A DNA stretch of 64,000 nucleotides. It comes from Peronospora farinosa (lineage: Eukaryota; Oomycota; Peronosporomycetes; Peronosporales; Peronosporaceae). Both the position numbers and the translations under genes were made by a program. Under the pieces are notes generated by a model. It ran no database searches. It saw only the letters and a program-made list of their open reading frames with translations, and had not been told where the DNA came from. Positions 6,860-21,998 of the stretch are shown here, in pieces. The number at the start of each line of letters is the position of its first letter. Positions within the stretch are counted from its first letter, which is position 1. The stretch covers positions 62,001-126,000 of the forward strand of contig CANTFK010000129.1 of NCBI GenBank assembly GCA_947646735.1, written 5' to 3'.

Positions 6860-8832
6860 TCACTGGGCTTCTTCTCTCTCTACCTCTTCACGATGCAAGC
6901 GGCGTGCCTCCCGCTCGGCATTGCGCACGTCCTTCTCAGCTTCACGACCAACCTTATGCAGCAACTCAGCGCGCTTCATCTCTTCAATTTCCTCCATAGA
7001 GAGTTCCTTCTGCTGTTCCAGTTCCTCTTGGTGCTTTTCCATTTTCACCAGCTGCTTTACTTGAAGACGCAGCGAACGCTTGCGTGGAATCACCTCAAGA
7101 ACTGCTAAGCGATTGGCCTTCTCCAGTTGCCGTGTCCGCGCTTCGTCCTCATCCTCAATCTGCTCTATGATAACCTCTAGATGATCCAACAGTTCTTGCT
7201 CGCCTCGAATTTTACGTCCACGAATTGTTTTCATCGCTTTAAGCATAGAGCGAAATGCGTTATCTCCCTTAGCCCAGAGTGCCCATTGTTGCGTCTCCTT
7301 ATCTAATCTATACAATCGCCGCTCTTCGTAGAACTGCGGGAAAAAATAATACAGGTTTCCAGCACGGTCATTGCCGAGTGGCTCGATGCGTAAATCGTCA
7401 TCTTCCATCTGGCGCATATATTCACTGTGCCACCATCAACAAAAACATTAGTACGGCATATAACCACATTGTATGAGAAAGATATCATCTACAGTCCGTA
7501 TTAAACAAAATAGCACAAAGAAGTACGTACGTGTTGACAGGGTCATCCACCACGGCCTCGCACAAATTTAGCAGAATCTTGCATCGCAGCTCGATCGACA
7601 AATCTGCATATGACTGGTGCTGTGAATCAATCGAATAATATTTGATATTGCAGAGTCGTGTCAGCGTTCCTAGCCCCGTGTCCAAAATCTCGATAGAAGT
7701 ACTTACCTTCAAAGGGCAGACCATGCCAAGCGTTTCAAGACGAGTCCTCAGGATATCGAGTGTCAGCCACTCATCGTCCGAAAGTTCTACATCCACCTGC
7801 TCATCCGTATCGTTGCTCGAGTGACTACGATTATCATCATCCTCATCTTGCGAAAACGTATCCGGAAGTCGCTCACCAGCTTTGCGCAGTAGCGCGTACC
7901 ACTTGTCATACATATCGAGGTAGTACATACGCAGCTGTTTGTTCCACCACTCATACTTGAGTCCAATTCCAGCACTCAAACAAGCTCGTTCACTTTTTTT
8001 CAGCAAGAGTTTTGTGAAAACATCTTCCAATATTGAACTATCCTCGGGCTTCAGCAATGCTGCTTCATATTCAAGCAACGTATTTGAGAAATGCAGTGTC
8101 AGAGGACTTTGCAATAACCAGAGAATATGGCACGCTGCCGGCAGTTCCCACTGCGACCTCAAGGTGCTCAACTCATCAAAATCAATGTTTGTGTGGTTCC
8201 ACTCCGCTCCCGTCTCCACGAAAAACGGTAGAGACAGTGGCGAATTCTCCTTCCTTTTATCGTCCTGTGTCCGCACCTTTCGTTTAGGTGCAGCTCTTGG
8301 CTTGACCTTAGCGGCGGTCTTTTTCTTCCCTTGTGTCTTTGAGTTAGTTGTAGCTATTCCAGCAAGTGTTGAGCATTTCCTTGTTGACTTCTTGGCCGAC
8401 GACATGGCTACACCATTCACCTTCACATCTACCTTATCCTCCATCAATGTCTGGTTCTCTAAAGCCTCGACACCGATCTTTTTCCCGTCTAAAAGACATC
8501 ATAAATAACAATTCAGCAAGTCAATAACAGCATCGATTACGACGTTCACAAGAGCATGAAAAATACACCAAAATATTGGGCTACAAGGAACTACCTCGTT
8601 CTACATTAAAATGGTCGTATTTTATGCCATTATTGATCGGCAAAGTGACATCTTCCCCTTCCACGATTGCATGCGACCTATGGTCGTCTCTTTCGAGCAA
8701 TTCGCTACGTACTGAGACCGCATCTTCGCTCACCATATCCACTGAGGTCTTGAGCTTCTTTACTTGCCCTTTAACATCCTCAGACTTGAACGATGTGGAC
8801 GAGATGCGCTTGAGTGTATCACTACGGGCCAT
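6860..8832 (-). CDS. DDT/WHIM-domain chromatin remodelling protein (CECR2/BAZ-like)
   Basis: Predicted nuclear protein, 586 residues from three exons: 8832..8595, 8488..7531 and 7424..6860. Both introns are 106 bp with GT-AG ends and matching phases. Exon 2 starts with a Lys-rich low-complexity segment, then a DDT-type helical domain (RSQWELPAACHILWLLQ onward), then an acidic stretch (DEDDD). The exon 2/3 junction leads into a WHIM2-type motif (RIEPLGNDRAGNLYYFF), which in ISWI partner subunits contacts the remodeller or linker DNA. The C-terminus is a long charged coiled coil. The stop at 6860 falls within the coiled coil, and coil-like sequence continues in another frame to 6711. Family role is inferred from CECR2/ACF1-like proteins. 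Confidence 0.8.
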
Positions 8833-9003
8833 GGCGTCGGTTGGTTTGGTTATTTTTTCAAATGGTATAAGAAAAAAACATTACGACCGAAAATTTATCA
8901 AATGTGACCAATCAATGAGCAGAATACAATATACAAACCCCAAAATTTTGACAATAGTCTATCGTAACAAAATACCGTTGATATACTGTAATAATAACAA
9001 CGT

Positions 9004-11475
9004 CTATCTAAATGTAGCACTTCTTGGCATATGATGCATCTTCTTGACTTGAGCGTTAGACTCATTCGACTTCTTCGACTTCTTTCCCTTGTCCTTCATG
9101 GCCATAAACGGATTATATCCTGCCTGTTTTTTCTTGTATCCATGCCCTCCGTTTCGACCCTTGTCCTCGTCCTTTTTCAATTGGAATTTTGCTGCTGTAA
9201 TCTCATTGCTGGCTGTGGCGTAGTCAAAGCCCTGGAAACCACTCGTGACTTCCATGTCATTATCTTTCTTGTCCTTCTGCAGAAACGACTGGACACGCTC
9301 TTTGACTTGAGAGGCTGCAGACGTGTTCACGGGTGTTGTTTTTTGCCTCTTCGATCGGTTCGACATGTGATAGGTCTCCGAAATGGACTGCGGCATTTTT
9401 GGCTTGGTATCATCAGCAGTACTTTCGTCCTTGCTTAGGATCTGAGACAGAGATGTACGTTGAATGACTGGACTCTTGACTCGCTCGCTCTCGGCAATTG
9501 TAAACATTGTGCTTGCAACCATAGCATTCACCTTCTCGAGAAGCGTGGTGGCTGCTGTCTCGGAGTTGACAAGAGTTTCTGACGAAATGTTGCCTCCAAG
9601 AGCCATAGGCTTGGCATTGCTAGAGAATACAGATCCATTCAAAGCTGCGTCAATATTCGTGACGCCAGCTTTACGCTGGCCACTTTTCCAAGGAGCGAAA
9701 GCAGCACGTCCGACACGCTTCAAGCTCGACGAAGACACAAGCTGTTCTTCTCCATCCTCGTTCCAAATCTTTCTTGTTGGCTTGGCTATAACAACATGTT
9801 TAGGGACTTGCTGTGCCTTTGACTCTTCTTCGGCAAGTTTTGTCTTCTCAGCGACGATCAATTTTGTTATCTGAAGCGCGTGCTTACGAATAAGCGGAGG
9901 CACAGGGTGGCAAGCACGGAATAGTTCATCAGATCGTACAGGCAAGTGCTTCGTAAGCTTCATTAGCACGTGGTTCGGCATCACATAGGCTACCGATTCG
10001 TCTTCCTGACGAGCGACGCGGTCGCGCCACACGTAAAGAGCTATGATCACACGTTTCTGAAGATCAGACAGAACGCGGATGTTCACTGTTCCCTTGAGCT
10101 TTTCACCGACTGCTAGAGCATCCTCCTCTGTGACCTGAGGCTTCTCATACACCTGCAGACAGAGCTGATTCGAGTTCTGTAGTGTCTGGAAAAGCAGGCT
10201 CTCACAAGACTTTGCCCCAGCCTGCAGAAGTTCTTTCTTAAGACGGTCGTAGATGAACAACAAGTAGCGCGTATCCTCGCGCGCATACTTGACCATGTTC
10301 TTGTCTAGTGGACGAGTGCGCCAGTCTGCGAGCTGATACTGCTTATCGGCGTCGACATTGCAGTGACGTTTAAGCATGTAAGCCAAGGAGAAGCGGGGAT
10401 ACTGTAGCAGACGTGCCGCGCGGCCCGTGTCAAACAGATTGACAACGTACAAACCCAAATCGCGCTGCAGCCACAGAATATCCATGTCGCTACCATGCAA
10501 CACCTTGACCTTCTCAGGGTCGCAAAAGACCTGATTCAACATCTCCAACTTGCCTCGCAGCGCCAATGTATCAACCAAAAAGTCTTCGCGTGCCGTCGAA
10601 ATCTGCATCAGACACGTAAGCCCCATGTAGGACCTGTAGCTATGGTGTTCCAAATCCACCGCAATCGCACGAGTTTCAGCAGCAGTGAGCGACTTCATCA
10701 TCTGCACCAGTTTCTCTTCCGAATCCACCCACATATACGTAGCCTCTTCTAGCTCTACTTTCTCATAAGGCGTTTCCGATACTTCCAACTGCCATGGCGC
10801 ATACTTGAGTCCCTTAATCTCGTGAAAATATGGATGACACAACCCCGTCTCATCCTCTTCCTCTTCCACCAATGCAACTGTAGCTCCACCATTTAGAGCA
10901 TGTACTTTTTCCCGTAATTTCGACACAAAAGGTGCGTCCGTGTTGTCAATTTTGTCATCAAATTGATCCTGTGGCTTAGCCTGTGCTCCTCGTGTCATTG
11001 TCTTGTCCCCACGTCCTTCCTTCTGCTTAAACTTGTTCTTCTTGGTCTTCTCAAACCCATGAGGTTTATTCTCTAGTGGTCGTAACTGTCTCGTGTCCTT
11101 TAAAGTCTCGGTCTCACCATTCACAAAACGTATCAAATGTTTCGATGCTTCATCGAGCAGCATGTCGGCGTAATCTGTGACATGTGCAGTCGGCTCTGGT
11201 CCATCAAAAAGGTCCATTGTCTCGTCTTCACACCTGTTGCTTTCCACTCCCTTCTCTCGATCCGTTTGGTCATTTTGTTGCCATTTAGTCAATTGTCGCA
11301 CAAGTGTTTCGACTTTGGCCCCAGACTTCGTAGAAAGTGCTTTAAAGTCGGTATTAAATTGCATGTGAAAGTGAAACCCGTCGTCTTCCGATGGAATGGC
11401 ATTCGAAGCTTTAACAGACTGTAAGACCTTGCGATACAAGCCGTTTACAAAAACGGTAGCATCAGTTTCCTCCAT
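9004..11475 (-). CDS. RRP6: Nuclear exosome 3'-5' exonuclease RRP6/EXOSC10
   Basis: Distributive 3'-5' exoribonuclease of the nuclear exosome, acting in rRNA, snoRNA and surveillance RNA trimming. 823 residues, single exon. The N-terminal region resembles the PMC2NT domain that binds RRP47/C1D. The DEDDy nuclease is complete: D274 and E276 (VDLEHHSYRSY), D332 (SDMDILWLQRDLG), Y397 and D401 (YAREDTRYLL). An HRDC domain follows at about residues 455-540 (LQKRVIIALYVWRDRVARQ...). The C-terminal tail is Lys-rich and suits nucleolar targeting. Length and domain order match EXOSC10. It is followed head-to-head by the PPR-CDIN1 gene, with 217 bp between start codons. Confidence 0.95.
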   Translation of the reverse strand: MEETDATVFVNGLYRKVLQSVKASNAIPSEDDGFHFHMQFNTDFKALSTKSGAKVETLVRQLTKWQQNDQTDREKGVESNRCEDETMDLFDGPEPTAHVTDYADMLLDEASKHLIRFVNGETETLKDTRQLRPLENKPHGFEKTKKNKFKQKEGRGDKTMTRGAQAKPQDQFDDKIDNTDAPFVSKLREKVHALNGGATVALVEEEEDETGLCHPYFHEIKGLKYAPWQLEVSETPYEKVELEEATYMWVDSEEKLVQMMKSLTAAETRAIAVDLEHHSYRSYMGLTCLMQISTAREDFLVDTLALRGKLEMLNQVFCDPEKVKVLHGSDMDILWLQRDLGLYVVNLFDTGRAARLLQYPRFSLAYMLKRHCNVDADKQYQLADWRTRPLDKNMVKYAREDTRYLLFIYDRLKKELLQAGAKSCESLLFQTLQNSNQLCLQVYEKPQVTEEDALAVGEKLKGTVNIRVLSDLQKRVIIALYVWRDRVARQEDESVAYVMPNHVLMKLTKHLPVRSDELFRACHPVPPLIRKHALQITKLIVAEKTKLAEEESKAQQVPKHVVIAKPTRKIWNEDGEEQLVSSSSLKRVGRAAFAPWKSGQRKAGVTNIDAALNGSVFSSNAKPMALGGNISSETLVNSETAATTLLEKVNAMVASTMFTIAESERVKSPVIQRTSLSQILSKDESTADDTKPKMPQSISETYHMSNRSKRQKTTPVNTSAASQVKERVQSFLQKDKKDNDMEVTSGFQGFDYATASNEITAAKFQLKKDEDKGRNGGHGYKKKQAGYNPFMAMKDKGKKSKKSNESNAQVKKMHHMPRSATFR

Positions 11476-11692
11476 AACCAGTAATAATAGTAAATGATTC
11501 CCCTTCTGAGGTCCATAGACATTAAAATTACCTCTTTATTCATATGTATTCTTAATTATAGTAGAAATGAAACGGTATAGGATCTAACAAAACCCCTGTA
11601 TACCTTCATACATTGTCAAACTTGATTGTTTAGTGTTCAAACCACCTTCAAGCGACCTTACCAAACGTTCGACCCATGCTGACCAGTCGAAT

Positions 11693-14194
11693 ATGATGCT
11701 CATTAGGTCATCGTACGATGCTGCTCGTCGTCTTGGACTGTTTGCTCCCGTCCATTTGTCTCGGAATCGTCCGATTGTGTTTCATCAGTCGCTTGACTTT
11801 CGCTTTACATCCACGCAGACTACAGCCGTGACTTGTTCTTCCATTGATAAGACGGTCCTTCCCAATACCCCCATTCCATTGAAACGTCGTAAGAATAAAG
11901 TAGCCAAGAAAAAAGTCTCTGCTCTTGCTGCTTCTACTGTCGCTACAAAAGATGTAGAGACATTGATACCGAAGAAAAAGGTCAAGAGCAAGCACAAGCC
12001 ACGAAAACTCATGTCGCAGAAGCAGATTGAAGAAGAAATGCTGGCAAGAGCAATGAAAGAAGACGCCGAGACAAGTGCAAGTGCAAGTGCTACCGGGACG
12101 GTATTGGATACGGTCCCAGTGACTGTATCGGATACGGTTCCAGTGACTGTATCTGGTACGAAGAAGAGTAAACAGAATTATGCTCAGTCTACGGACAAAA
12201 CAAATGGATCTAAAGCTATGGAGACTCCAGTCGTGCCATTGAAAGAGCCAATGCCATTACAAAACCTCAAGACTGAGAAAATTACAATGACGTTGCAGGA
12301 AATTGCAGCATTGCAAAAGACGCTACCGAGTAAAAAGGAAATTGCAGCACTGATTACAAAGCTCCGACGTGTGTCGTTTGATAACGCACATACATTGTTT
12401 GATCTGTATCGAAACTTTGGTAATCCGTACTTGGACGAGAATTTTCTCACGCCAGGTGTGTTGGCGTGTTGTGAGGCGAAGAAACCAGCTGAAGGGATTC
12501 GTATTGTTCGTGATATGCTCAATCAAGGACGCAAGGTAGATGAGTCTACATTGCGGACTTTGTTGACTGCGTGTGACGAGGCGTCGGCTGCTGCGGAAGT
12601 CATTGAGCTTTGGTATCTAATGGAACAAGCTGGGATGAAACTGGAGCTAGCTGACTACAACCGCTTCTTAGACATTTGTTACCGCCAAGAATATCTGGAT
12701 GGTGCCATTAAGGTGCTAAAGGAGCTTCGTCTACACCGTTCCATTTCAGTGCACACGTACATGCACTGGCTGCTGCGTGCGTCAATTGTGTGGCGATCGG
12801 ACGCATTCTTTGACATCCTGATGGAAATGCGTCTTTCGGAAGTTGAGCCAGAGATCATGTCGCTCACGTCACTCGAATCAGGACGCAAAGACCGTGCATT
12901 GACGGTGATGGAAGGAGTGCGTGCTGTTGGGCTAGATCCGTGCTTTGCAATGTCGTCGGTATTCTCGTCTATGCAGTCGTCTGTTTACCGCAATGGACCG
13001 AGCTACATGGCATTGACGTCGAAGGATATTAAGATTGCACGGGAAAAGTTTGGTGACCTCACACCGATCGAGCAAGAATGGCCTGTGACTCCAATCCCGC
13101 AAGTGTTGGAAACTCAGGCAGCAGGACTGATCCTGCAGCAAGAAACGTTTCGCCGGCTGAAGCGACAGCAAGTGAACCGCATCGATGCACTCCTGCAGAT
13201 GTTGCCTATCACAGCCAACATGACTATTAACTTGCGCAAGCAACTCTTGCGCATGTCGTTGCTGGTAAATACGCATCGTGTTCGTCGTGACAGAGAAACT
13301 ATCTGTAGGGAATACGACAGTGGACGTAGCCTCATTGAGCTGTCGACCGTACACAATTACCCTCCAGTATCGCTTATGCGAGTTATCCTTCGTGCAAAGG
13401 GCAAGAACCAGATTGAGATCAAGGTATATGGGGCTTCTCGATATGATACTGTGGAGTCTCGTTTAACTTTCTAAACGTGTTTCTGTGTAGAATGCGCTGG
13501 CGAGACCTGCCGTGAACCTGTCAAAGCGCGATCAGCATGAATTGCGTAAGGCTATCGAATACGACAGTATTCACAAAAGTGATCCATTCATTGGTGCACC
13601 AAAGTACAATGCTGACTCGTTAGAAAAGGCCATTGAGCATTATTTGAAGGCCAAGGGGATCCGCCTCAAGTACGTTGTCTATCTATCGAGCAATCATGTA
13701 AGTAGCCTCAAAATGAAGGTACTAACGTATTGTATTTTTCCTTGGCATGCAGGACCCAAAGTGAGTTATGCACGGATCAAATTGCAAGTCACGGGCGTCG
13801 CGTCATTTCTCCGGATATTTTGCTTTTGGATCCTGTAATCATTAACGGCGTGCCGATTCGATGGATCGATGCCAAGAATTATTACGGAGCTCATATTGTA
13901 AGCAAACGGTTGATTTCAACCCAGCTTGCAAATTACGTCAAAGAATGGGGTCCTGGTGCCATTGTGTTTGGAATGGGCTACAGCGACATGTTTTCGCTAC
14001 CAGGTGTCATTTGTTTGGATACGACACCGTTTCCAAAGACACGCAAGGAAGCTGCCAAGATTCGCATCAAGTCGTTTTTGTATTCGTGTCTCAATGTTTT
14101 TCGCTGGAAGAAGCATTTGGGCAGTGAATTGACCAAGAAATACCCTGGTATTGAAGACGATGCGTCGATAAAATCGTCAACTCCGTCGTCATGA
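11693..14194 (+). CDS. Mitochondrial-type PPR protein fused to CDIN1 (C15orf41)-like nuclease
   Basis: 783 residues from three exons: 11693..13423, 13491..13669 and 13753..14194 (introns 67 and 83 bp; phases 0 and 2). I chose the ATG at 11693 because the upstream in-frame codon is GTG and the sequence from 11693 looks like a mitochondrial presequence (MMLIRSSYDAARRLGLF: Arg-rich, no acids before Asp9). Then come Lys-rich low complexity and short repeats (TVPVTVSDTVPVTVSG), a PPR-like helical array at about residues 270-420, and from about 510 a region matching CDIN1: a helix-turn-helix segment (LSTVHNYPPVSLMRVILRAKG) and a PD-(D/E)XK core with P657-D658 and D676-A-K678 (SPDILLL...WIDAK). Human CDIN1 binds codanin-1 and has no PPR part, to my knowledge. 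Substrate is unknown. Confidence 0.8.
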
Positions 14195-14421
14195 ACCTCG
14201 TAGTAGAATATCTGAGACTATAACCGATAGAGAGACTTCACTACATCCAATTTTTTACGTAATGCTACGTATCGAGGCAAAAATATCCATGTAAAGCTCC
14301 AGATTTTGTACGCGGATAATTTACAATTGTAACAAAATTATCCGTTAGGATCTTTTTGGCCACGTAAAATCCATGGTATTTGCTTTCAAAAGATAAAAAA
14401 TAAATTGCGTAATATATTTCC

Positions 14422-16268
14422 ATGATCTCGCATCATCAACGTCCACCACGCAGTTGGTTCTATTTAGTTGAATGTCTACGAGATCCTCCACGGAGTGACT
14501 TTGCATTTGTACCACACCAGTACATCTTGGCGCCACTAGATCTTTTAAATGGATCAGATCTGTCTCCTAGCGATGAAAACACTCCCATTAATTCTCGGTC
14601 TCTGTTTTAAAAAAATATCTTTTTTTCACATTTATGGATTTTTTTGTTTTTTTTTCTTTCTGACATAAGACTATTTTTATTTGTATTTTTTATTACTATA
14701 GACCTGATTATCGTCATAATAAAAAACGACTTGCCAGTCAATGGAATACATTTTTTGCACTCCATCTCCTTACCATGGGGGCTGCAAGTGTAGCATGTGC
14801 ATGGTTAACATTATTCCCAATCTCTCCAAGAAGATTATACAATATGCAAGTGGATATTTTTCAAGCTAGACACGAACATGCCGAGTTTTTCTTTCACTCG
14901 TGTTTAAATCTGGGTACGGTACTTGGAGCTGCTGTTGCTGGTTACTCTGGTGACCGATTGGGTCGAGCAGGGACATTGGAACTCGCAGCAATCCCATTTC
15001 TATTGGGTTCAATGCTCATTGGTGTCGCATTTGGAGAACTTACAGTCTTAATTGGACGGTATCTACTTGGTACAGCAGCTGGGATGATCCATGTCATTGT
15101 ACCGGTCTATTTAGCTGAGTTAAGTGCTGCACATACACGCGGTCGAGTCATTTGTGTGCAAAATTTCTTTTCGATGCTTGGACGGATTAGCTACGCGGCA
15201 CTTGGAGCACTCTTTATGTATCTAAGTCGACAGTATCTCGGCTTTAATCTTAGTGAATGGAAAATGCTTGCGCTCGCGGGGCTTGTGCCTGCGTTGATAC
15301 TGTTGCTGTTGGCGCAAAAGCTTCCTGATTCACCCACGTGGCTCATTGCACGTCACGACGATCGGGAAGCTGCTTTTGACGTGCTATTGAAACTATTTAA
15401 TCGAGATGAACAAGTTGCAGAGGACGAGACCAATGCTATCATTCACGCACAAGTACTCGCAGCGACAGAGAGGCGCCATCACGGCGCATTCTTTCGCCCC
15501 GTACTTCTTTGCGCGGCGCTCTTTACACTAAGTGCTGTGAGTGCATTCCTTCTCCAGCCACAAATTGCGCCAACGCTTGCTGAAGCTAGTAGCAGGGGTG
15601 TTGGGGGGATTCACACCAATGCTTCGTTCGTCCTTACAATTTTTGGCGTTACTGTCAAAGGTACGGAAGAAGGTCTGATTGCTGTCACTATGGCTGTTGC
15701 ATTAGCTGCTGCGGTGGGTGTAGTGGCGTGTTTCTACTTTGTTGATACCAGAGGACGGCTTGTAGTGCTGCAGTGTGGATGTTGCTTGGTGGCATTAGCT
15801 TGTGCTTTTCTAATGGTGTCCATCTCCCGAAATGCGCATCTAGTGAAAGCCGATGGCGTAGCACTTAGCGACTTGGGTTGGGCGGCCATGCTGCTGGCCA
15901 ATGCTAGCCATCAGCTCAGCCTCGGTGTTATTCCCGTGATTATGGTCAGTGAGCTTTTTGCAGTGAAGCAGCGAATGGGCGCTGTGAGTCTCGTCATGAT
16001 GTGGGAAGCAATTGTGAACATCGGACTTGCTCACGCGCTATCAATGCTTCGCGAGTCCGTCCCATGTCCAGTGTCAGTGTTTAGCATCTGCGTCGGTATC
16101 GTCATGGCATGTAATATCGCCGGAGTTGTCTTGTCCTGGTGGTACATTCCCGAAACTAGCAGACGTAGTCTCCAAGACATTGAAGCTATTTTATGTGGAT
16201 GGCATCCTGCTACTCCTCGCCGTAACAATTCTTCACACGTTTGGCTTGAGTATGGAAGCAGCGATTGA
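14422..16268 (+). CDS. MFS sugar transporter (SLC2-like)
   Basis: Major-facilitator transporter, 580 residues from two exons: 14422..14597 and 14702..16268. The 104-bp intron has an unusual GTCTCT donor but an AG acceptor behind a long T-rich tract, and the phases agree. About twelve hydrophobic helices are present. Sugar-porter signatures: GDRLGRAGTLE after TM2, GRYLLGTAAGMIHVIVPVYLAE with a following RGR, PDSPTWLIA before the central loop, and a closing IPETSRRSLQDIE. The substrate is probably a hexose or related polyol but cannot be fixed from sequence. An alternative start at 14775 would lose the N-terminal cytosolic segment, so the spliced model is preferred. The last 59 bp of the CDS overlap the HIT gene on the other strand. 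Confidence 0.8.
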
Positions 16269-17013
16269 CAAGTGAGTAAGAGCCCAACTTACAAGTTTGG
16301 ATTACATTGCAAATAAATAAATGCCTATAGACTCTTCCAGTGTCTGGCGGTCCCCCTCCAAAAGTCTCAGACGAGCTCGATGACGATTCTTCTCCGTTGT
16401 TAGAAGTTTCATCTTGTTGGACTCCACCTGCTATCTCGTCCAGTCTTGCCATAACCTGCTCATACGAGCGACACCACCACGATTCAGTGCGATACTTGAG
16501 ACGTCCGTACCACGTTAAACTGCGCATGTCATCGTGGAATGCATGCATATGCACGTGGTCAATGCTATTAAATGGCGGCAAATGGAACGAGTAGCGAACA
16601 CGCTTCTCATCTGTATCACCATCACGACGATGTTCAAGTTCCTGTGGCTGCTCTCCAATGTCTTCCATCTCAAACTCTTGGGTCATCATTGCTTCAGCTA
16701 CACGGTGCATCCGTGCAAGTAATCCCCGATGTTTTGCAGCCAGTAGATTCACATTCCGAATATGAGCACGAGGTACAATAAGTACATGACTGGCAACAAC
16801 CGGACGTAGTGGACGAAAGACAACCACGTGATCATCTTGGTATAAAAACGGCTCCGACTTTGTCCGTGCAATTTCACAAAAGCGACAGCTCCGGACTTGA
16901 CCGTCACGATGATATCGAACGCCTTTGCGCTTAGGAAAGACTATAAGCTTTAGACGTGGTGATACCAACACATTGTTCGATCGTCGCGTGAAGCTTGAGC
17001 TACTTCGGTCCAT
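16210..17013 (-). CDS. HIT-domain protein, HINT3-like adenosine phosphoramidase
   Basis: Predicted nucleoside phosphoramidase of the HINT/HIT superfamily, 267 residues. After a basic N-terminus come CRFCEI (two Cys, HINT3-like), the beta strands around VVASHVLIVPRAHIRNV, then FHLPPFNSIDHVHMHAF with the HxHxH triad supplying the catalytic histidine, and a Trp-rich tail (RTESWWCRSYEQVMARL) that matches animal HINT3. A Ser-rich tail (GEESSSSSSE) follows. The ATG at 17013 was chosen as the nearest start to the domain; the frame stays open upstream to 17391 but that part is low-complexity. The 3' end runs 59 bp into the convergent transporter CDS. A GTAAGT at 16292-16287 could be an alternative donor that would avoid the overlap. 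Confidence 0.75.
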   Translation of the reverse strand: MDRSSSSFTRRSNNVLVSPRLKLIVFPKRKGVRYHRDGQVRSCRFCEIARTKSEPFLYQDDHVVVFRPLRPVVASHVLIVPRAHIRNVNLLAAKHRGLLARMHRVAEAMMTQEFEMEDIGEQPQELEHRRDGDTDEKRVRYSFHLPPFNSIDHVHMHAFHDDMRSLTWYGRLKYRTESWWCRSYEQVMARLDEIAGGVQQDETSNNGEESSSSSSETFGGGPPDTGRVYRHLFICNVIQTCKLGSYSLVNRCFHTQAKRVKNCYGEE

Positions 17014-17497
17014 AATTCCTGCACCTACTTGATCGACCGACTCCTCTCTTTGCTCAAGTGGATTTGCACTTATGAACCTGAGGCTGAGCTTGCCCTCAAG
17101 CAAAAGCAATGAGAGGGGTCTTACATTATCTCCACGTCTCACGTTTCGATTGAGAGGGGGACGATTGTCTCGTCGCAGAAAAAAAAAGGTTTTATCTCGA
17201 AGCATTTTATCATATTTATAGTCAAATATGAGAGTGAGCAACGGGATTTTTTTCTTCGTATGGACCAATGTGGTTCGATAAAATATCATAAAGTGTGTGT
17301 GTTTATGTAAATCAAAAGGATCAAAAGGAATTCCGCAACGTTTCTTTTTTTTGCTACATGGAATAATATCTACTTTCGATGTTATTTTCATTGTTGTTGT
17401 TGTTGTTTTTCTGTATCAAGCTATAGAATCAAATAAAAATCCAAGGAGGTTATGCGTTTTCCAATAAACAAAAAAAAGTTTACTCCTTTTTTTCGCA
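17014..17497. other. Spacer upstream of the HIT gene
   Basis: 484 bp between the HIT start and the DUS3 stop, both on the minus strand. AT-rich with homopolymer runs and a short (GTT)n-like tract near 17391-17407. It presumably holds the HIT promoter and the DUS3 3' UTR; no separate gene is supported. Confidence 0.5.
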
Positions 17498-19632
17498 TCA
17501 ATCCGTACTTTGATACGCATTTGCTCGATGTTTAGGTACAAATTGAAAATCATTTGGCACACGACCCAGTAACATTTCAGAAATCTGGACCCAATCACTT
17601 GCTTGATCACTGGCCATTAAAGTCTCAAGAGCATTGCGTCCATAATAAGATGATGGACGGTCATTAATTCGCTGAGGAAGAGATTCCAATAAACCCACAG
17701 GAATGTACCGACATAAGAACGATTGCCACTCGAGCAAATACCGACGTGTCCGATTAACGCCCTTTTGATCAGAACCCCAATGTTCAAGACCAAAACGAAC
17801 AAACTCTTGGAGCAACTCGAATCGTTCCGAGGCGGAAATGTCCCAATGACGGCGCTCTTTGATCTCAGTGGGAAGCCACGGCTTGATGAGTGCACCGCGT
17901 GCAAGCATACAAGTGTCCAGCTTGCCATTTTGCAAGTGGTCATCAAATTCTTGGTACGAAAGAACATCACCGCCACCAATGAATTGCACGTGAGACAACT
18001 CGTGGGCATCATCAATGCTGCCTTGTTGTGCATCACTGCACTGAAAAATGTAATCCCAGTCAGCATTCTTTGTGTACCGCTGCAACCTTGAACGGCCGTG
18101 CACTGTAATGGCGTCAATGGATTGTGTCGCACGGAGCTGAAAATCCGCAGTAACTACTGCAGCGTTCACGTACGCCTGAGACGCACGCACAGACTGCAGC
18201 TTGGGCACTAACTTGTGAGCCGTCAGCTGTTTGTCGCTCCATCCCGTGCGAAGCTTTACGGTAAGCCCTGGAGTGTTCACGGTACCACCCGTACGCACAC
18301 GGGTACCGAGCTCTAGTCCGGTCAAGGCACCAGATACGACCTCAAGCAGCCGAGGCGGACGGGTCATCAATGCCGATCCAGCGCCAGAGCGACACACGAT
18401 ATCGATGGGGCAACCCATGTTAATGTCGACGAAATCCACATCCGTCTCGCGAGCAAGAAGCTCGCACACACGGGCCATCTGGTCGCTATACGAGCCCGCG
18501 AGCTGTACACCAAAGACATCTTCACTCTTGTGACGTCGCAGCAATGCCCACTCTGACTGTTGAGCCTTCAGCAGGTTTGTAGCCATTGCCATCTCACCGC
18601 ATGTAATATCGGCACCGGTTTGCTTTAGCAATCGACGGAACGGCAAGTTGCCCACGGTAGTAAGCGGAGCAATGTAAATTTTCCGCTTAAAGTCAACGGG
18701 TTTTCGTTCCGCGAGCAATGGACTCTCAGCAGCAGGCTCTATATTGACATCTTCAGACGCAGACTCTGTTTTCACAATATCTGCAGACTTCAATTGTACG
18801 GGTTGAAAAGCCGACAGCAAAGTCTCTGGATCTGCCATTTCGTTACTATCAGTAGTACCAATGATTGTTACGGAAGAAGCGTCGCCTTTCATCTCGACCT
18901 CTTTCTTTTGATCACTTGGCTGCGAGCGTTTACAATCGTTCTTCTTACTTTTCTTCATCTGCTGTTTTGACTGGAAGTCGTACGTATCCTTACGCAGCTT
19001 CAGCCTCAAATCATGGCTCAGATCGTTCACCTCATTGCCCTGCATCTCTGCATAATCTTCACGCTTCACATTACGATAAGTATCATCCACTTTCTCAATG
19101 TGTGAGTTGGCAAACCGACAAGCTACACCGTAGCGACAGTAGCCCATGGCATCAAACACTGGACAGCGCTCGCCCAGATCCTTTGGTTTGCGCTTCATGT
19201 AATCATTAATATCATGGCTAAACTTGCAACTGTCACCAAAGTGACAGCCTTCCCCAGAGGCCACAGGACGGCACAACATATCTGCCGGGTCTTGTACGGC
19301 ATCCACCGGACGCTTTTTAAAGGTTCCACCGCGTTTCTTCTGGCCACGATCGCGGTCATCCTTTGTATCGTTTCCATCCTTTGCATCACTAGCTTCCTTA
19401 GTAGCTTTTGACACTGATTTGGGCTTCAAGAACCTAAGAAACGGTATCATGTAGTGTTAGTGGATAAAGTTTTTTTGAGAGTGATAAATGTTCATATTGT
19501 CGGCAGTACGAACGCTTTCTTGATCGGAGCTTCACCAGGACGTCGTTCATGTACTGGCACTTTAATTGAGACGGGTATCGCGGTGGTTAAAGTCTCTGGG
19601 ATCGCAAGAGATGACGTCACGAGCTGCTCCAT
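17498..19632 (-). CDS. DUS3: tRNA-dihydrouridine(47) synthase 3
   Basis: Flavin enzyme that reduces a uridine of the tRNA variable loop (U47 in yeast and human) to dihydrouridine. 684 residues from two exons: 19632..19514 and 19433..17498. The 80-bp intron has a GTTCGT donor, and phase 2 joining gives APIKKAFLKPK, matching the APIK segment of animal DUS3L; this supports the upstream ATG. Two CCCH zinc fingers follow (CRPVASGEGCHFGDSCKFSH and CPVFDAMGYCRYGVACRF), then the FMN barrel from YIAPLTTVGNLPFRRL, the active-site cysteine in NMGCPID, and substrate-side motifs GLTVKLRTGW and ITVHGRSR. Domain order and length fit DUS3L. It lies in tandem with an NSUN2-like gene. Confidence 0.92.
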
Positions 19633-19751
19633 CTCAACTAATGATTGAATGGACACGAAACGACGAAGTTAAAACAATATTGAGTATTAAAATACAATAA
19701 TTGCAAAACTTTATGTAGTCAACAATAATTGTTTCCAGTACACGAGGATGA

Positions 19752-21998
19752 TCACTCGTCTTCAAACTCAAATGAACTGTAGCCATCTTCGTTCTCTCCA
19801 TCTGCATCATTGAGCTCCTCTAACAATGCTTTAATACGTGCAATTGCTGCAGGAGATGACACGATTGAGCACGAATTGTGCCGTTTCACAGCTGTTAGCA
19901 CGATATCTCGATCACCTGTTTGAGCAGGTTCCATGTCATCCAGCACCACAGCAAAGCTACCCTCGGTCATGTCAGCTAGCTGCTCACGAGCGTGTTTTCC
20001 AGCATTCTTTAGCCACATTTCGCGTGATTCCAACAAAGATGTAAACTCATCTTGCGGCAAGCTCAACACCCGAGCATTCATCTCAGGTAGCAATGCTCGA
20101 GCCCCATCATCGGTAAGCTTATCGGATACGGTCTCTGCTCCAGTTCCAGGTTTTAGCACAAACACGCCAGCGTGATAGATACTTAACCGTCCACGAAGCT
20201 GACAAGTCACGAGCTTTGCAGCTGCAGGCGTCACCACGTGAACTGCACCATGTTGACGAGCCATACCGGTGCGCTCCAGAAATGTTGAATTGCTACGAAG
20301 TCCGAAGAATGACCGAATTGATGACAAGTGCTTCTTGTCAATGGTGGCAAAACACCCAAACGGCTTTTCAGCTTTCACTTGCTTTTTGTTCTTGGACGTA
20401 GCTGTCTTGGCCTTGGTTTTCGGTGGAGGAGGTGGGGCAGGTCCTACAGCAGCAGAAACACAAACGGTTTCACGAACCTTACGAATGACTGCGAGAAAGA
20501 GTCCGTGAGTATCGTTGTGATGAGGCAACACACGGACACAGCGCTCGAGGTGCATCTCATCACGCTCTTCAGATGTCGGGGGCCACATGGACGGACGGAG
20601 ACGATGCCGCTGATGCTCTGGAGCATCGTTCCAAGACGCTACGTCAAGAACGTCCCACTTGGTTGTGCCATGCGAGCGCTGCAGTCCTTTTAGAACCTCG
20701 TTGGTATCAACAAGTTCCAGCGCACCCTTCGAGTGGCGAAGCAGCTCAGCTATCACTGCCTCGTCCTCGATCGGGCTCAGCGATCGTGTGCTGTACAGCA
20801 ACACACCACCAGTACGTAGTAGAGCAAGAGCATGTTCCACTAGGCCCACTTGGCTGGGATGGCGTGCCAGCGCTTGCTCAGGACTCCACGTACGCCACTT
20901 CTCCGGAAGCTTGCGAATCAGACCATCTCCAGAGCACGGAGCACAGCAAATGACACGGTCAAACAGAGCATCAGCATCCTCCGGAGTAGGGAACTCCTCT
21001 GGTTTATGTGTCGTCACGATAAGCTCGCGCGCAAGTGGCAGTGTTCGCGTCAAATTCCGTACCGCTGACGCCGCTGCCGTGGTGTCGCGTTCATTTACAA
21101 CTAGCAAGCTTGTTGCATTGGATCTGGCCTCAATTCCAGCACTAGCGGGAGAGAAAGGACACAGATACTCCTTCACAATAGGAGCACGATGTTCACCACC
21201 ACCGCAAAGATCCAGAATGCGTTGACCAGGCTGGATATCCAAAAACGCCGGTAGCACAGTAGCAGCAGGGTCTTGTCGGAGAAGTGTACCCAGTGATCCT
21301 TGAGCACGCACATACGTACTAAGCGGTCGCAGTTCTTCCATCTTTCGAAATGTCTTGCTATCCACCGACAGTTTCCACAATCTTTTCTCTGGAGCCCACG
21401 GCTCAGGTGCAAATTGTACTTGCATCTCACCACCTCCCACAGGCGTTGGCACTGTCACTTTCTTCAGATTAAAGTCCAGCTCCAATGTCCCTGTCACGAT
21501 TTCACTCAAACTCGTATAATTCCCATTGACACGCAGATGCACCGGTAGCGGCTCTCTCAAGCATGCCAAGAAGCGTGCAAACTCATCACTTTCGAGACCC
21601 AAACAACGTCCATAGAACGTCTCAAAAGCACAATTCTCTCGGTCAAATTTACGCCACACGATCTTCTCGGCCTTCTCTTCTCTATATCTCTTCTTTCGCT
21701 GGTCCACAGCATACTGCTCCGCATCTGCACGCGCCCGTTTGCCCATCTGTTTCTTCTCCAAGTCCTTCACAAAGTCGCTTACTTTATCTCCATCCTCTAG
21801 CGACGGTAGCGGGATGACCACCGATCGATTCGTATCGTCCAACGAGTCCAAGTCGCTGTCATCAAATCTCTGTTCCTGACGCTTCGGAGACGTTCTAGAG
21901 CTTGAAACAAGAGATCCAGTATAACAAGATGCAGTCACTTCTCCCGCTTGCGTTCGTTTCTTTGCACGACGTGTCGTAGCGCGGCTATTCCCACCCAT
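19752..21998 (-). CDS. NSUN2-like RNA m5C methyltransferase homologue, probably catalytically dead
   Basis: 748 residues, single exon, with the length and layout of NSUN2 (tRNA/mRNA cytosine-5 methyltransferase): a Lys/Arg-rich N-terminus, FETFYGRCLGL..., a Rossmann methyltransferase core, and a C-terminal PUA-like region. Key residues differ from the active family. Motif I reads LDLCGGGEHRAP (C265 onward) in place of LDxCAAPGxKT. Motif IV keeps the release cysteine (APCSGDG, C355). Motif VI reads YSTRSLSPIEDE, so the nucleophile cysteine (C321 in human NSUN2) is R405, codon CGA at 20786-20784. A role in RNA binding or as an inactive partner is inferred. It diverges from the giant USP gene across a 208-bp spacer. 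Confidence 0.8.
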   Translation of the reverse strand: MGGNSRATTRRAKKRTQAGEVTASCYTGSLVSSSRTSPKRQEQRFDDSDLDSLDDTNRSVVIPLPSLEDGDKVSDFVKDLEKKQMGKRARADAEQYAVDQRKKRYREEKAEKIVWRKFDRENCAFETFYGRCLGLESDEFARFLACLREPLPVHLRVNGNYTSLSEIVTGTLELDFNLKKVTVPTPVGGGEMQVQFAPEPWAPEKRLWKLSVDSKTFRKMEELRPLSTYVRAQGSLGTLLRQDPAATVLPAFLDIQPGQRILDLCGGGEHRAPIVKEYLCPFSPASAGIEARSNATSLLVVNERDTTAAASAVRNLTRTLPLARELIVTTHKPEEFPTPEDADALFDRVICCAPCSGDGLIRKLPEKWRTWSPEQALARHPSQVGLVEHALALLRTGGVLLYSTRSLSPIEDEAVIAELLRHSKGALELVDTNEVLKGLQRSHGTTKWDVLDVASWNDAPEHQRHRLRPSMWPPTSEERDEMHLERCVRVLPHHNDTHGLFLAVIRKVRETVCVSAAVGPAPPPPPKTKAKTATSKNKKQVKAEKPFGCFATIDKKHLSSIRSFFGLRSNSTFLERTGMARQHGAVHVVTPAAAKLVTCQLRGRLSIYHAGVFVLKPGTGAETVSDKLTDDGARALLPEMNARVLSLPQDEFTSLLESREMWLKNAGKHAREQLADMTEGSFAVVLDDMEPAQTGDRDIVLTAVKRHNSCSIVSSPAAIARIKALLEELNDADGENEDGYSSFEFEDE

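Follow-up and report, generated by a model that had tools for sequence, protein, structure and literature searches.

A pentatricopeptide repeat region joined to a CDIN1-type nuclease domain in oomycetes: a candidate mitochondrial RNA nuclease in Peronospora farinosa

We analysed a gene in a 64,000-nucleotide stretch of the Peronospora farinosa genome (assembly GCA_947646735.1, contig CANTFK010000129.1, positions 62,001 to 126,000), which we call the window and by whose positions all coordinates are given unless stated otherwise. The gene encodes a single protein of 783 residues in which a pentatricopeptide repeat (PPR) region is joined to a nuclease domain of the CDIN1 (C15orf41) type, and it is a real gene, not an annotation artefact. 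Its features are as follows.

11693-14194 (+), PPR-CDIN1 fusion gene, 783 residues; exons 11693-13423, 13491-13669 and 13753-14194; open spliced frame with full-length orthologues
11693-11827 (+), presequence-like N-terminus, residues 1-45; 6 Arg, 0 Lys, 2 Asp, 0 Glu
11828-12268 (+), Lys-rich, poorly conserved stretch, residues 46-192; the model of the orthologue P0003 gives it mostly low confidence (disordered)
12332-12835 (+), PPR region of five predicted helical hairpins, residues 214-242, 249-277, 284-312, 319-348 and 353-381
12845-13159 (+), conserved linker, residues 385-489; 50% identity to the two most distant fusions
12860-12952 (+), linker core block SLTSLESGRKDRALTVMEGVRAVGLDPCFAM, residues 390-420; almost invariant in 15 aligned oomycete fusions
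13160-13423 (+), helical, helix-turn-helix (HTH)-type N-terminal half of the CDIN1 part, residues 490-577, its last 8 residues being encoded by exon 2 (to 13514); alignable to the corresponding half of stand-alone CDIN1
13424-13490 (+), intron 1, GT..AG, phase 0
13521-14023 (+), TPD / PD-(D/E)XK nuclease domain (PF14811), residues 588-727, interrupted by intron 2
13623-13625 (+), E622, predicted helix-1 metal-binding glutamate
13670-13752 (+), intron 2, GT..AG
13811-13816 (+), P657-D658, PD motif
13868-13876 (+), D676-A677-K678, (D/E)XK motif

The start codon is preceded upstream by an in-frame stop, and removal of 13424-13490 and 13670-13752 leaves a single frame of 783 codons with splice junctions at residues 577 and 637. 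An earlier reading, made from the letters of the window alone (the sequence-only reading), had arrived at the same coordinates, introns and residue numbering. Although 26 GT..AG donor/acceptor pairings leave the frame open, only the pairing that gives the exons listed above allows a gapless alignment to the orthologue P0003 over its C-terminal part. The same reading had placed a PPR-type array and a CDIN1-type PD-(D/E)XK nuclease in one protein, and both are recognized above the Pfam cut-offs: TPD (PF14811) with 97.9 bits (cut-off 27, E 5.9e-28), and PPR_3 (PF13812) at residues 270-329 with 27.1 bits (cut-off 25, E 4.5e-6), so that PPR hits are not absent from the window protein.

Database relatives were sought with residues 220-765 of the fusion as the query; 7997 candidates were scored and 44 proteins were returned. 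Of these, 29 (P0001-P0019, P0025-P0030 and P0040-P0043) combine a TPD domain with an alignment over 97-100% of the query stretch, and with P0045 and P0046, which came from further searches, the protein clusters that span both halves number 31, five of them from Aphanomyces astaci. Whether other oomycetes share the fusion, a point the sequence-only reading had raised, is thus answered by these 31 clusters, among which 11 genera are named: Peronospora, Phytophthora, Peronosclerospora, Plasmopara, Nothophytophthora, Globisporangium, Lagenidium, Pythium, Saprolegnia, Aphanomyces and Achlya. One of them, P0001 from Peronospora effusa, shows a rounded identity of 100% over residues 220-765; its few differences from the fusion protein are mostly N-terminal. 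No fusion was found in named non-oomycetes in database searches that scored about 8000 candidates each, which is not proof of absence. A scan of prokaryotic genome contigs and scans of viral contigs confirmed no relatives; the former and one of the latter used only two linker peptide patterns, and therefore could not find stand-alone CDIN1 relatives.

The remaining 15 of the 44 proteins are partial open reading frames (ORFs), and these bear directly on the alternative that two separate genes were merged by annotation. Eleven run into the position of intron 1, three cross it uninterrupted, and P0032, a differing model, ends earlier. P0020, P0022 and P0023, on contigs of 8.4-17.6 kb, reach from the N-terminus to the equivalent of residue 637 without intron 1; at the position of intron 2, P0020 and P0023 stop and P0022 continues for five residues. 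Two separate genes are untenable for these three, because their ORFs run through the position of intron 1 without a break. Gene models of this gene do overrun elsewhere, P0001 into a downstream transporter gene and P0018 into TAP42 and COX7a, which lends the merger some plausibility, but the intron-1-free ORFs, the 31 clusters that cover both halves, the conserved linker that connects them and the sole gapless splicing make it virtually impossible, and we consider it ruled out.

Several results bear on the five predicted hairpins of the PPR region. A profile built from 34 relatives (A3) matches PPR10 at 1e-13 and the PPR domain of PRORP1 at 4e-5 in the PDB, and PPR_3 and PPR_2 are each matched in 29 of these 34 relatives at E ≤ 1. 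In the AlphaFold2 model of P0003 (residue numbers of the window protein are those of P0003 minus 10) the PPR region has high pLDDT, and structure matches support the hairpins. Two further families fall below their cut-offs in the window protein, PPR_2 with 25.1 bits (cut-off 30) and PPR_long with 14.5 bits (cut-off 27). The canonical PPR code, with conserved positions 5 and 35, is not found; the code positions are degenerate.

The nuclease part has the residues expected of the PD-(D/E)XK superfamily, namely the helix-1 glutamate, the PD motif and the (D/E)XK motif. All 33 sequences compared, namely the window protein, the 31 clusters with the fusion and the unfused relative P0047 described below, retain E622, P657, D658, D676 and K678; a separate comparison of 25 sequences likewise showed E622 in every one. 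TPD is matched in 26 of the 34 relatives; the other eight are ORFs that stop short of a complete domain.

Between these parts lies the linker. Against the two most distant fusions, P0045 and P0046, its identity is 50%, compared with 27% for the PPR region (24 and 27% over residues 193-247, with the first hairpin), 47% for the HTH-type half and 51% for the nuclease domain. Judged by sequence, the constraint on the linker is about equal to that on the nuclease domain. By eye, the core block SLTSLESGRKDRALTVMEGVRAVGLDPCFAM looks like a PPR with its first helix replaced.

The N-terminus is more variable, with identities over residues 1-192 of 34 and 38% to P0003 and P0006, 27% to P0016 and 7-11% to P0025, P0045 and P0046. 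Its composition is maintained: in 26 N-termini (the window protein and 25 relatives), the net charge of the first 45 residues is at least +4 in 23, the exceptions being P0010, P0045 and P0046, and acidic residues are absent from this segment in 16, although the window protein has two Asp. Stretches such as RFTST, RLNST and RALST resemble mitochondrial processing sites. The presequence proposed in the sequence-only reading is therefore matched in composition among orthologues, which is consistent with, not proof of, mitochondrial import.

The genome contains one other TPD gene that we found, a stand-alone CDIN1 of 313 residues that begins MDEEE under the chosen splicing. It is 23% identical to the CDIN1 part of the fusion (BLASTP 3e-14, fusion residues 497-743 against residues 12-293), and it is matched at 61.1 bits by a profile made from the CDIN1 part of the fusions (28 of the 34 rows), compared with 9.8 for the best of 2000 shuffles; the homology extends over the HTH-type half as well. 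Because this CDIN1 exists in the same genome, the fusion is a paralogue. Codanin-1_C gave no match in the genome, but the controls were equally silent and the result is uninformative.

If relatives carried the CDIN1 part alone, the fusion would look less secure; the relatives are fused, with one exception. P0047, of 461 residues with a Lys-rich start, is nearer to the fusion (4.7e-40 to P0046 and 1.5e-34 to the window protein) than to the stand-alone paralogue (2.7e-13), and its two matches in this genome both lie within the fusion gene. The fused type thus looks like an old CDIN1 subfamily that, to judge from these sequence distances, existed or persists unfused, though P0047 could instead be an incomplete gene model. 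A Foldseek search with the P0047 model gave no significant match; a second listing gave nuclease folds together with RPB5 and other chains.

Several neighbouring genes are of interest. An Rrp6/EXOSC10-like gene at 9004-11475 (-), in which DNA_pol_A_exo1, HRDC and PMC2NT all exceed their cut-offs, and the fusion gene are arranged head to head. Their start codons are 217 bases apart, and a shared promoter is possible for these two RNA-related genes. Within 17498-21998 (-) lie a DUS3L-type dihydrouridine synthase (17498-19450) and an RsmB/NSUN-type RNA methyltransferase (19752-21998); several RNA-acting genes therefore cluster here. An Rfam scan around the fusion gene (8000-17500) gave no match. 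Downstream, at 14775-16268 (+), is a transporter-like gene of the major facilitator superfamily, which P0001 (1350 residues) joins to the fusion gene. The Phytophthora cinnamomi fusion protein P0002 (783 residues) is named ‘major facilitator superfamily’ although its only listed Pfam domain is TPD, and P0018, from Lagenidium, extends into COX7a and TAP42 domains. P0001, the name of P0002 and P0018 all look like annotation run-ons.

Together, the PPR region, the presequence-like N-terminus and the intact nuclease residues suggest directed cleavage or trimming of mitochondrial RNA. We propose, as a reading that we hold to be evenly poised, that the protein is a nuclear-encoded, mitochondrion-imported, PPR-directed nuclease of oomycetes that most likely acts on RNA. 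After import into the mitochondrion, the PPR region and the conserved linker would dock on a mitochondrial RNA, probably at a structured or protein-bound element, and docking would place the CDIN1-type PD-(D/E)XK domain at a site of cleavage or trimming, rather as PRORP uses its PPR domain to position an NYN nuclease. The sequence-only reading had called the enzyme RNA-guided; nothing suggests a guide RNA, and at most the PPR part of the protein itself would guide. Since the genome yielded a single RAP match (C263, L009 1447-2322 (-), 29.8 bits), a RAP-like job is possible, for example the maturation of transcript junctions without tRNAs, a role drawn from the account of RAP proteins in PMC9181182.

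A number of observations weigh against this proposal. The Pfam PPR cut-off was reached in none of ten relatives rescanned (in nine, a PPR match lies below threshold), and P0045 lacks any PPR match at E 0.1, so that in such sub-cut-off relatives the PPR assignment rests on sequence homology. The PPR region is less conserved than the linker and CDIN1 part, and the position-5 residues, in a register set by eye, vary (T/I/V, R/H/L, N/Q, M/L) and include R and M. Because position 5 is variable, sequence-specific reading is doubtful; structural PPR proteins may likewise lack the 5/35 code, so that only sequence-specific reading is made less probable. The HTH-type half and the reported Hjc-type resolvase likeness of C15ORF41 would suit DNA equally. 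For the human protein, PMC7261414 reports no activity detected on the DNA and RNA substrates tested there, and the account in PMC13370696 knows of no published CDIN1 nuclease activity.

Three other readings compete with an RNA nuclease in mitochondria. If the nuclease fold only binds RNA, the protein could, without cleaving, serve the assembly or stability of the mitoribosome or of mitochondrial RNAs, like RAP proteins in the Toxoplasma mitoribosome; a binding-only role does not require the catalytic residues that are kept in all 33 sequences, and we regard it as unlikely. The CDIN1 part might instead resolve or repair mitochondrial DNA or R-loops, with the PPR part recruiting it to nucleoids, nascent transcripts or single strands. 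The retained HTH-type half favours such a DNA nuclease, as do the many structure matches of the nuclease half that are DNA enzymes, though the PDB mostly holds such enzymes for this fold. PPR arrays are chiefly RNA binders, which speaks for RNA. C15ORF41 has been described as similar to archaeal Holliday-junction (Hjc-type) resolvases and to the DNA-repair PD-(D/E)XK superfamily, but the inactivity reported for it includes DNA substrates (PMC7261414 for both), and on balance we consider action on DNA improbable. Finally, the protein could lie outside mitochondria and act, CDIN1-like, on nuclear or cytosolic RNA or DNA: the Lys-rich stretch could contain a nuclear signal, and the Lys-rich start of unfused P0047 is unlike a presequence. 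The N-terminal composition among orthologues argues the other way, and we hold a non-mitochondrial protein to be very unlikely.

Mutation of human CDIN1, a predicted nuclease without published activity in the account of PMC13370696, causes congenital dyserythropoietic anaemia type I. That a CDIN1-type nuclease occurs in nature fused to a presequence and an RNA-binding-type array points towards RNA as a substrate class, and towards mitochondrial RNA in the case of the fusion itself; the fusion also offers a self-contained protein for testing RNA as a CDIN1-family substrate. More tentatively, and in our view less likely than not, oomycetes may have evolved an independent PPR-plus-nuclease RNA-processing enzyme from the PD-(D/E)XK domain of CDIN1, so that the CDIN1 family, the human anaemia protein included, would be RNases dependent on a partner for their targeting, a role that codanin-1 would play in humans as the PPR part does here. 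As for the claim that this build is new, no publication linking pentatricopeptide with CDIN1 or C15orf41 was found in a search that reached few subscription papers, but the proteins themselves are already in databases, many automatically named CDAN1-interacting nuclease 1.

Compared with CDIN1 / C15orf41 (PF14811), the fusion shares homology over the full length, including the HTH-type half, and keeps the PD and D/E-X-K motifs, but adds the PPR region and presequence, both of which the stand-alone CDIN1 of its own genome lacks. P-class mitochondrial PPR proteins, including the mitoribosomal rPPRs, have the PPR hairpins and a presequence; the fusion differs in its degenerate code positions and in its PD-(D/E)XK domain, for which we know of no counterpart among those proteins. 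The likeness in build to PRORP, noted in the sequence-only reading, holds: both have a presequence, about five PPR hairpins and a C-terminal nuclease, and the PPR part matches that of PRORP1. The fusion nuclease is of the PD-(D/E)XK type, whereas that of PRORP is NYN, and the PRORP nuclease PF16953 has no match in the fusion protein at E 10. The genome has two PRORP genes (L004 and L005; matches on C29 and C42), which makes replacement of RNase P by the fusion unlikely; the protein is probably not RNase P. The PRORP on L005 (1120-3180 (-)) is a 686-residue ORF with a presequence-like start, and the other has its PPR-type and nuclease ORFs apart. PRORP appears, according to the review PMC10941002, to have taken the place of the RNA enzyme in every compartment of stramenopiles.

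RAP-domain proteins (FASTKD4 and apicomplexan RAPs) likewise combine helical repeats with a C-terminal PD-(D/E)XK-fold domain, and are described as mainly predicted to be organellar (PMC9181182, PMC8190603). The fusion has a CDIN1-family domain instead of RAP; RAP (PF08373) has no match in it at E 10, which rules out membership. A sequence search with the RAP ORF of the genome, aimed at identifying 9g6k_Li as a RAP protein, gave a single unrelated weak match. With a nuclease family that we have not found described in that role, the fusion is a new variant of the helical-repeat-plus-nuclease plan of PRORP and RAP proteins and, if it acts as proposed, would add, after those two, a further organellar case in which helical repeats and a nuclease fold are combined.
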